From NCBI GenBank assembly GCA_022072455.1, contig JAJVHY010000020.1:1-64000 (forward strand): a stretch of DNA of 64,000 nt. Direction: 5' to 3'. The notes beneath the pieces were generated by a model, which saw only the letters and a list, made by a program, of their open reading frames with translations, ran no database searches and was not told the origin of the DNA. This document shows positions 623 to 2,742 of the stretch, in pieces. Each line of letters starts with the position of its first letter. Position 1 is the stretch's first letter. Both the position numbers and the translations under genes were made by a program. The stretch comes from Verrucomicrobiia bacterium (GTDB taxonomy: Bacteria > Verrucomicrobiota > Verrucomicrobiia > Palsa-1439).

Positions 623-644
623 GGAAAAATACTTTCATTTTTCC
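623..644. repeat. AT-rich perfect inverted repeat upstream of HTH gene
   Basis: GGAAAAAT and ATTTTTCC form a perfect 8-bp stem around a 6-nt loop in otherwise GC-rich sequence, directly followed by a small CCAC/GTGG hairpin. It lies between the integrase stop and the HTH gene, so it could be an operator for the HTH protein or a weak terminator for the integrase. Function is inferred only. Confidence 0.4.
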
Positions 645-680
645 ACCATCGTGGATGGGTTCTGTGCCAGAATTCGCGCC

Positions 681-932
681 ATGTTCGATGAACGAAATGA
701 GGCGGTCTTCCGATTCGTGCGCATGTGGCGGCAGAAAGTAACGTTGATTGTACTCGAACAACTTACCGGCATCTCCGATGCCACGTTTCACTTGTGGGAA
801 CATCGCCAGCGTGGCGTCACTCTGGTTCATGTGGCGAAGCTGGCCCGCGGACTGAGATGTTCGGACAAAGTCATTCTCGGCTATGAACCGTGCACCGGTA
901 AATGTCCCCAGTGCCGCCTCGTCCAGTCATGA
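681..932 (+). CDS. Small HTH-domain protein with C-terminal CxxxCxxC
   Basis: An 83-residue protein starting at the ATG at 681; a GTG in frame at 651 is an alternative. The central region (VLEQLTGISDATFHLWEH and the following helices) reads like a Cro/C1-type helix-turn-helix, and the C-terminus carries CTGKCPQC, a possible zinc knuckle. It is therefore probably a DNA-binding regulator, but the family is not recognised. Its TGA overlaps the ATG of the next reading frame (ATGA at 929-932), the coupling arrangement used throughout this genome, so the two are probably one transcript. An AT-rich inverted repeat just upstream could be its operator. Confidence 0.5.
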   Translation: MFDERNEAVFRFVRMWRQKVTLIVLEQLTGISDATFHLWEHRQRGVTLVHVAKLARGLRCSDKVILGYEPCTGKCPQCRLVQS

Positions 933-1324
933 ATTCTCGTTTTTCCAGCCAAATCCAGGATTCCACCGAGCCGGTGGATCATAGAATGGCTGGATTCAGT
1001 CACTCCACGGCGGGATTCAGTCATTCCACGGTGGGATTTAATGACAGCACGGCTGGATTGATCCACCGCGTGGCTGGATTCTGCGGTGCCGTGCCGGGAT
1101 TTATCCGCCGCACGGCGGGATTCTGCGGTACCACGGCTGGATTCTGTGGCTCCGTGGCTGGATTTAGTGACGGCACGGCGGGATTTATCCGTCGCACGGC
1201 GGCATTTACCGGCACCAGGAAATCAGTTTGGCACCGATTCCCCACCTCCACCATTGGAGGGACGCGCTCCGTCGCGTCCGTTCGCACAATGCGGCCACGA
1301 CGGAGCGTGGCCCTCCAGACCTAA
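929..1324 (+). CDS. Heptapeptide-repeat protein (AGFxxxT), unknown
   Basis: This 131-residue frame starts at an ATG overlapping the stop of the HTH gene by 4 nt. Residues about 21-96 are a tandem heptad A-G-F-x-x-x-T/V, about ten copies, in which the A-G-F core is constant and the three middle residues vary (SHS, NDS, IHR, CGA, IRR, CGT, CGS, SDG). Many differences between copies fall at third codon positions (GCG/GCT, CAC/CAT, TGC/TGT, CGC/CGT). The last ~30 residues run into a palindromic element and are probably not meaningful. The opposite strand is also open through the repeat (an NPA-type heptad), so coding strand is not proven; the coupled start favours plus. Function unknown. Confidence 0.4.
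   Translation: MNSRFSSQIQDSTEPVDHRMAGFSHSTAGFSHSTVGFNDSTAGLIHRVAGFCGAVPGFIRRTAGFCGTTAGFCGSVAGFSDGTAGFIRRTAAFTGTRKSVWHRFPTSTIGGTRSVASVRTMRPRRSVALQT
992..1201. repeat. 21-bp tandem repeat array, ten units
   Basis: Ten head-to-tail 21-bp units begin with GGATT and end around ACGGCG; an eleventh, degenerate unit starts at 1202. The ends of each unit are conserved while the middle 10-11 bp differ from copy to copy. Because 21 is a multiple of three, the array never breaks a reading frame. There are no unique spacers, so it is not a CRISPR. Confidence 0.9.
1255..1317. repeat. Paired palindrome (REP/BIME-like element)
   Basis: Two 26-nt arms (1255-1280 and 1292-1317) are imperfect inverted copies of each other, matching at 22 of 26 positions. 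Each arm is itself a hairpin: GGACGCG/CGCGTCC around CTCCGT in the left arm and GGCCACG/CGTGGCC around ACGGAG in the right arm. The four mismatches between arms fall as two compensating pairs, so both 7-bp stems stay perfect. This is the pattern of a dispersed REP-type element. It ends 19 nt before the next gene. Confidence 0.8.
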
Positions 1325-1335
1325 AGGAGATCCAC

Positions 1336-2046
1336 ATGTCACAGAACGACTATATGGCTACCGATGATCAAGGCAAAGCGTCGCAGTTCACCCGGTTTGC
1401 CTCGGAACTGCCCGGCCAGCTCACGGCCTTGGGCTTGGTAGCGACCGATCCGGACATCGTCCAACAGGCGCTCGACGCCGCCCGGTTCCGGGCCTTGGTG
1501 GATTTCGGGAGCGTCATGCAAGGCGCCGCCCAAGCCTGGACAGCCACGAAAAACCACGAACGCGATGGCGGCGATACCGTCCCCTCCGGCCAGACGCTCC
1601 CCGTCTTGCCGGCCAATTTCCCGGCACCGGTGCCGCCGGGCATCGTCCCGCGCTTCCGCGCCTTGGTCAAACGCGTCAAGGCCTGCCCCGGTTACACCAC
1701 CGCCATCGGCGAAACCCTCGGCATCGAACGGCCCCAGTCGCAACCCGCCAGCGACATGGACTCCGAAGGCCCGCAACCGGTCCTGCGCGGCCGCGCGCTG
1801 GATACCGGCGGCGCGGAAATCAAATCCACCAAGGGCGGTGCCGAAGCGGTGGATCTGTATTGCCAACGCGACGGCGATGCGGCCCCGGTCCTCCTCATGC
1901 GCTGTCTGCATTTCCCTTACATCGACACCCGGCCCCTCCTCGTGGCCGGTAAGCCGGAGAAACGGACGTATACCGGCATGTTCATCCGGCACAACCAGCC
2001 GTACGGCCGGATGAGTGCCAGCATCACCGTCATCGTCAGTGCCTGA
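1336..2046 (+). CDS. Uncharacterised protein with fibronectin-III-like C-terminal domain
   Basis: A 236-residue protein. The ATG at 1336 is chosen because AAAGGAG sits just upstream, one of the few clear Shine-Dalgarno sites in the window. The N-terminal ~120 residues look helical and carry VPPGIVPRFRALVKRVKA. The C-terminal part (about residues 155-236) has the strand pattern of a fibronectin-III/Ig-like sandwich, with KGGAEAVDLYC, PYIDTRPLL and a final SASITVIVSA. It resembles a group of uncharacterised proteins I associate with Verrucomicrobia and Planctomycetes, always with no assigned function. There is no signal peptide. It is located in the palindrome-rich accessory stretch. Confidence 0.7.
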   Translation: MSQNDYMATDDQGKASQFTRFASELPGQLTALGLVATDPDIVQQALDAARFRALVDFGSVMQGAAQAWTATKNHERDGGDTVPSGQTLPVLPANFPAPVPPGIVPRFRALVKRVKACPGYTTAIGETLGIERPQSQPASDMDSEGPQPVLRGRALDTGGAEIKSTKGGAEAVDLYCQRDGDAAPVLLMRCLHFPYIDTRPLLVAGKPEKRTYTGMFIRHNQPYGRMSASITVIVSA

Positions 2047-2238
2047 AGGGATGGCCCGGCCGCCGGCGGCGGCTGGCGGCGGCCCCACAAAAAGAAACGA
2101 CCTGTCGCGGGGCAACCGGCGTTACCCACCCCGCCCCCCGGTCCGACTGCCGATAGTTAACGGATCGTCGGCTACACCGACGGGCTGCTCGGGGCCAGCC
2201 CGGCCTGCAACATTCTCCGGCCACATTACGATGCCGGT

Positions 2239-2742
2239 TTGAAATGGCCCGACCCGGCCAACCCGCAGCCCGACGATTTTCGTTGGGACGGCGGTGTCCG
2301 CGCCGGTCTCACCTGGGACGGGACGTTGTATCGGGACCTGGCCCGCTTTCCTGCCGGCGGTTCGCTGTTCTGGAGCGTATATCTCAAACCCGGCAGCGCG
2401 CCCGGCAATCAAAATGGGTTCTGGTTCAACTTCGGCGGCGGCTGGTGTCATCTCGCCCACGACAACCTGAGTCAAATGCTGACCGGCGCCGCTCCGCGGT
2501 TGTACTGGGAGCCCCCTCACCGCTCGCCGGGCTCGCCACCTCTCCCCCCAGGGGAGAGGTCGGACGCGGAGCGGACGGGTCAGGGGCATTGGAAGCTCGT
2601 CATCGAAGCCACGCAATTCGTGACCGGCACCGTCGTGCCGGTGTGGGTCGGCGTGAAAGCCGGCGGGAATGACCCGGTGGGCGACTACACCCGCGTGGCC
2701 GGGTGTGATCCGTTACCGGTCTTGAGCCTGGCCGCAAGCTAG
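2239..2742 (+). CDS. Hypothetical ORF carrying an inserted palindrome, possibly a remnant
   Basis: The frame from a TTG at 2239 gives 167 residues, but coding-like sequence (VGYTDGLLGASPACNILRP) continues upstream to a TAA at 2158-2160 with no ATG or GTG, so the true start may be lost. The body is rich in aromatic residues and glycine, as in secreted or structural proteins, but I recognise no family. Residues about 92-117 are encoded by a palindromic element (2511-2589); removing it joins APRLYW to HWKLVIEATQF. Either a young insertion kept in frame or a decaying gene. Confidence 0.35.
   Translation: MKWPDPANPQPDDFRWDGGVRAGLTWDGTLYRDLARFPAGGSLFWSVYLKPGSAPGNQNGFWFNFGGGWCHLAHDNLSQMLTGAAPRLYWEPPHRSPGSPPLPPGERSDAERTGQGHWKLVIEATQFVTGTVVPVWVGVKAGGNDPVGDYTRVAGCDPLPVLSLAAS
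2511..2589. repeat. Palindromic element with 10-bp core stem
   Basis: ACCTCTCCCC (2538-2547) and GGGGAGAGGT (2551-2560) form a perfect 10-bp stem with a 3-nt loop, enclosed by imperfect outer arms CCCCTCACC and GGGTCAGGGG. It resembles a dispersed palindrome family common in GC-rich bacterial genomes and lies inside a reading frame without breaking it. Confidence 0.75.

Follow-up and report, generated by a model that had tools for sequence, protein, structure and literature searches.

Comparison with described repeat systems

Iterons and multi-operator arrays consist of tandem DNA sites about two helical turns apart, often with the gene of a DNA-binding protein nearby. The array described here, found beside a helix–turn–helix (HTH) gene in the window (the whole stretch of 64,000 nucleotides that was analysed), resembles these plasmid replication and partition sites in its tandem sites, in their spacing of about two turns and in the frequent presence of a DNA-binding gene. 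Unlike iterons, however, its sequence is unconserved between loci, it lies on chromosomal contigs, upstream of an FN3-family gene, and it lacks a known cognate protein. Minisatellites (VNTRs) share the tandem units, the rapid gain and loss and the concerted evolution, whereas here one fixed unit length occurs in unrelated arrays, at a preferred genomic position and with dyad symmetry. REP and BIME elements are likewise short palindromic DNA repeats near genes, but REPs are dispersed and have one common sequence, whereas the present units are tandem and their sequence is locus-specific. A CRISPR array was rejected: the units are direct 21-bp tandem repeats with an imperfect constant part, and no cas-like ORF was seen by eye beside the array. 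Our preferred reading, put forward tentatively at a probability of about 0.4, is that the 21-bp array serves chiefly at the DNA level, as a cis element in the leader of the FN3-family gene that follows it.

The initial annotation had suggested a mobile or diversity-generating context for the repeats, next to an integron-type integrase. The variable, NNY-like codons of the window array recall diversity-generating retroelements; however, the variation lies between tandem units, and reverse transcriptase (PF00078) is absent from the source genome, which is 95.6% complete, so this candidate was rejected and the suggested diversity-generating context is not supported. The upstream fragment at 1–555 is an integron integrase (TIGR02249), a feature shared with integron cassettes, but the copy of the module on contig C12 of the source genome lacks an adjacent integron integrase. 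On C12 the closest integrase-like match lies about 16 kb away from the module, which speaks against the integron link. The window starts at a contig end, and the beginning of the same integrase gene lies at the end of contig C35, which matches the first 176 bp of the window at 99.4% before the sequences diverge; the split of the gene between contigs reflects an insertion in one of the copies or else a branch in the assembly.

Organization of the locus

The basic arrangement given by the initial annotation, namely the HTH reading frame, the ATGA overlap with the following frame and the 21-bp array, is confirmed (Table 1), with eleven in-register units of exactly 21 bp in place of the ten counted earlier. 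The self-match of the array at a lag of 21, over the best 105 bp, is 0.667, against a maximum of 0.438 in 1000 dinucleotide shuffles. The array had also been described as open in all frames and on the minus strand. On the plus strand the three frames contain 1, 5 and 0 stops, and only the frame of the A-G-F heptads is stop-free; the minus-strand part of the description holds, with an ORF at 1021–1287 running across the array. All variable codons of the window array end in C or T. The frame that holds the array is possibly a translated leader and not an ordinary gene. Its last 70 bp are an inverted repeat distinct from the 21-bp array. This inverted repeat (GGAGGGACGCGCTCC...GGCCACGACGGAGCGTGGCCCTCC) recurs in the genome, with similar sequence and similar translation, near 242 kb of contig C3.

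Table 1. Features of the HTH–array–FN3 locus in the window
Feature	Position	Strand	Description
Dyad TCCAC-CATC-GTGGA	642..655	.	HTH promoter region; candidate autoregulatory operator
XRE-type HTH regulator	681..932	+	83 aa; Pfam HTH_26, E 8e-5; Cys-containing tail CTGKCPQC
Stop-free frame	929..1324	+	ATGA overlap with HTH stop; ends 11 bp before the next ATG
Dyad TCCACC-GAGCC-GGTGGA	962..978	.	Candidate dyad at left edge of array; resembles the promoter dyad
Tandem array	986..1216	+	Unit: constant ACGGCKGGATTY plus 9 variable bases
Separate inverted repeat	1255..1317	.	Forms the end of the repeat frame; 26-nt arms, 85% complementary
FN3-family gene	1336..2046	+	Constant partner of arrays; helical N-terminal domain and C-terminal FN3 fold
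Further gene of the duplicated module	2161..2742	+	Start position tentative; no known family; 55–59% identical to copies behind other source-genome FN3 genes

The HTH–array pair occurs three times in the source genome (in the window and on contigs C12 and C35) and also in several other genomes, so that the recurrence of a regulator with a variable array is borne out. The ATGA coupling is kept in all three paralogs, and a heptad frame related to that of the window is readable in the C12 and C35 copies. The C35 copy contains two successive array types, AGATTCGCGCCAACCGGTGAC units followed by GGCTGGATT units. The C12 and C35 arrays have some units in common and differ in unit number, which indicates gain and loss of units between the copies. 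In about 0.86 Mb of the source genome, chosen partly for loci of interest and scanned for periods of 10–60, period 21 and its double stand out with nine stretches each, against at most two for any other period. Two of the nine period-21 stretches proved on inspection to be ordinary protein repeats, and several of the source-genome arrays precede paralogs of the FN3-family gene.

Association with the FN3-family gene

It is with the downstream FN3-family gene, and not with the HTH gene, that the array is most strongly associated, a relation that the initial annotation had missed. We compared FN3-family loci with at least 250 bp of upstream sequence from related genomes (Verrucomicrobiota where named). 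An array of period 21, 22 or 42 is present within the 900 bp upstream in 39 of 50 loci and in 3 of 50 for a control stretch that begins 300 bp inside the FN3-family gene; three of the 50 loci repeat the same record (two with an array, one without), which gives 37 of 47. Weaker period-21 arrays are found in four loci without a called array. As a base rate, 0.8 Mb of an unselected contig (C16 of genome G028) holds nine period-21 stretches, some of which are protein repeats. Both FN3-family genes in this sequence have an array, and the arrays away from FN3 genes are located near nikR, after yebC or as orphans. One orphan, at 962079–962435 of the same contig, is a 42-bp array with perfect 20-bp palindromes (AAAGGTGACGTGTCACCTTT). 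A broad pattern search with the window unit in 93 relatives gave scattered two-mismatch matches, one of them inside a real period-21 array (L027, G028). Perfect or near-perfect 8-bp tandem repeats lie upstream of the 21-bp arrays at six loci (L103, L107, L116, L118, L129 and L134); at L118 the octamer CACCAGCG is repeated about 13 times, and octamers of this type are shared by different genomes. The array found no match in Rfam or among plasmids and phages, and no paper on such arrays was found in the open-licence literature. The element is real and recurrent, and apparently undescribed.

The AlphaFold (AF2) model of the FN3-family product is confident (pLDDT 90.9); its N-terminal part is helical and its C-terminal part forms a sandwich, for which Foldseek returned FN3 matches only, all weak. 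The family has no match in Pfam, NCBIfam or PHROG. It is present in 30 of the 286 genomes of the class, and the 17 loci in named records are nearly all from metagenome-assembled genomes of Verrucomicrobia or Lentisphaerae; a search of viral contigs with one family member as the query found no relative. A decayed remnant of the gene that follows the FN3-family gene in the window is found behind the C35 array.

Period, symmetry and turnover

The period of the arrays is conserved and their sequence is not. Exactly 21 bp separate the sites in 335 of 445 spacings, and a further 29 spacings are 42 bp. Only two loci, L142 and L143 of family f30, use 22 bp; the spacing at L145 and L146, which are also in f30, is 21. 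The sequence changes from locus to locus at nearly every place; for example, unit similarity between L111 and L114 is at background even though their proteins are 79% identical. The rapid variation that had been proposed from the window is thus borne out as fast turnover.

Most unit consensus sequences are dyadic. The mean z-score for dyad symmetry over column shuffles is +2.5, and z exceeds 1.65 in 26 of 39 loci, as in CACCAGCGCTGGTG (L130) and GGATAAG-ACC-CTTATCC (L146); the consensus of the window unit is itself not dyadic (z −0.4). Arm covariation within units is weak, A·C and G·T mismatches are about equally common (352 and 320, respectively), and in 30 of 37 arrays it is the antisense strand that folds better. 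The symmetry is therefore best read as that of half-sites in double-stranded DNA. An array of hairpins in the sense RNA was rejected on the mismatch counts and the better folding of the antisense strand.

The same observations bear on whether the arrays are functionless minisatellites, in which units prone to form hairpins multiply through slippage and the period is a product of that mechanism and not of selection. Tandem structure, concerted evolution, the gain and loss of units between C12 and C35, dyads that would aid slippage and the existence of some orphan arrays all fit this explanation. It does not account for the strong placement before one gene family, the recurrence of the same period in unrelated sequences or the strand-specific depletion of stops described below, and we consider it unlikely.

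Coding signals

The arrays do not look like genes at the sequence level. The GC content by codon position is 0.57/0.61/0.59 in the open frames of the arrays, compared with 0.61/0.47/0.81 in the FN3 genes. The synonymous share is 0.28 in the open frame against 0.35 and 0.30, so the comparison gives no synonymous excess. Among the spacings other than multiples of 21, 19 are divisible by three and 58 are not. Over the first 23 codons of the frame, where the three paralogs align without gaps, 2–4 codon changes are synonymous and 12–13 nonsynonymous; in the FN3 gene, by comparison, C3 and C12 differ by 54 synonymous and 27 nonsynonymous changes. The initial annotation had offered two readings, a modular repeat protein and a variable binding-site array, and with no codon-position signature, synonymous excess or frame-preserving spacing, the second fits better.

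Its main idea, that the HTH regulator is produced alongside a heptapeptide-repeat protein that diversifies rapidly, has on its side the open A-G-F frame with its conserved start overlap, the pyrimidine ending of the variable codons in the window and the related heptad frames of C12 and C35. Given the mostly nonsynonymous changes in the N-terminal leader codons, the 22-bp arrays, the stops at some loci and the lack of any evident heptad chemistry common to the loci, in addition to the missing GC3 signature and synonymous excess, we regard such a protein as quite unlikely.

The scarcity of stop codons on the sense strand is the main fact left without an explanation. A forward frame is open in 33 of 35 arrays where 21.9 ± 2.6 are expected, and the reverse strand behaves as expected. 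The sense strand contains 135 stops against 263 expected, about half, and the reverse strand 306 against 329. TAG, TGA, ATG and AGG are scarce on the array sense strand; part of the bias is due to base composition (C 0.34, G 0.27). With so few TAG and TGA codons in the sense direction, ribosomes may be able to read through the array, but the resulting peptide does not appear to be conserved. These counts would suit an array that serves as a translated leader or uORF, in which ribosomes from the HTH gene pass through and re-initiate at the FN3 gene and translation itself is selected, for instance against polarity or Rho termination in a C-rich leader. The ATGA coupling in all three paralogs would suit it as well, and so would two frames elsewhere, that of L101, which ends in ATGA at the FN3 start, and that of L100, which ends two bases before it. 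On the other hand, every frame of the 22-bp array at L142 is interrupted by stops, no forward frame is open at L107 or L121, an ATG is missing from several of the open frames, and the deviant spacings do not preserve the reading frame. A translated leader also leaves the 21-bp period and the dyads unexplained, and with part of the strand bias attributable to composition it seems to us fairly unlikely as the main role of the array.

The adjacent HTH gene

The HTH regulator has two paralogs, on C35 and C12, with 24–34% identity to it and a common CxxxCPxC tail. Their genes have other dyads at about the same place as the window dyad in the promoter region (TCCCA-GAAG-TGGGA and CGTCCGG-CACA-CCGGACG). 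A search by the tail motif of 388 genomes of the phylum and of genome contigs gave no homologue outside the source genome. A degenerate HTH with unit-like remnants is present on C9 of the source genome. At L189, L195, L199 and L201, Cys-tailed XRE regulators also immediately precede secreted-looking proteins, with no 21-bp array present.

The order HTH–array–FN3 is found at C3, C12, L100, L101, L104, L108, L126/L187, L191 and L200, and LuxR-type regulators are found near a few other arrays. This recurring order, together with the recognition helix and the CCGAYCATC core that L100 and L101 have in common, would be expected if the array were an operator array of the adjacent HTH regulator, acting in autoregulation or as a transcription roadblock. 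However, most arrays lack an adjacent XRE gene, and the array motif of the own locus was not found in the HTH promoters. HTH and array types also dissociate in both directions: near-identical HTHs and recognition helices at L187 and L188 adjoin unlike arrays (CCTCC...GGAGG and GACTC...GAGTC), whereas C3 and C12 have dissimilar HTHs next to like arrays. Because of this dissociation, the adjacent HTH is probably not the reader of the array, and we regard the operator-array explanation as very improbable. It is more likely that the HTH acts on its own promoter dyad, given the promoters without the array motif, the dissociation and the HTH genes that precede array-free secreted-looking proteins (L189, L199 and L201).

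Proposed role of the array

A fixed period, a place before FN3 genes, dyads in most loci, fast turnover and the lack of gene-like coding signals are what the computation found. From these we infer that proteins bind the array and that this binding regulates the FN3 gene. As a DNA-level cis element, the array would present a row of sites two helical turns apart, and proteins bound on one face of the DNA would form a continuous complex that sets the expression of the FN3 gene. Slippage or unequal exchange would quickly multiply, lose and homogenize the units, so that each locus drifts in sequence under a constant spacing. The HTH gene would often accompany the array without being bound to it, and its more likely target is its own promoter, by way of the palindrome there. 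The open frame may let ribosomes through the leader, and the peptide seems not to matter.

Several observations count against this DNA-element reading. The window unit has no dyad, some arrays lie away from FN3 genes and arm covariation is weak; the array motif of a locus does not occur in its HTH promoter, and HTH and array types dissociate. The depletion of TAG and TGA and the 33 of 35 open frames are not predicted by a pure DNA element. We also considered the bolder proposal of a new class of bacterial cis element defined by its period and not by its sequence, with dyadic sites every two turns whose sequence turns over locus by locus, maintained before one uncharacterized FN3-family gene in related genomes; its reader would be a factor responding to spacing or shape, or else a regulator that co-evolves rapidly. 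This proposal is doubtful at present.

In this element, length and position are kept and sequence is not, which fits poorly with ordinary operators, genes or junk DNA. A constant repeat length combined with a sequence that varies at almost every position is suggestive of a fast-changing platform for control at the DNA level and not of an ordinary protein. The element directs attention to an uncharacterized FN3 gene family with many copies per genome, and it would provide a clean natural test of whether the helical phase of DNA alone can be under selection.
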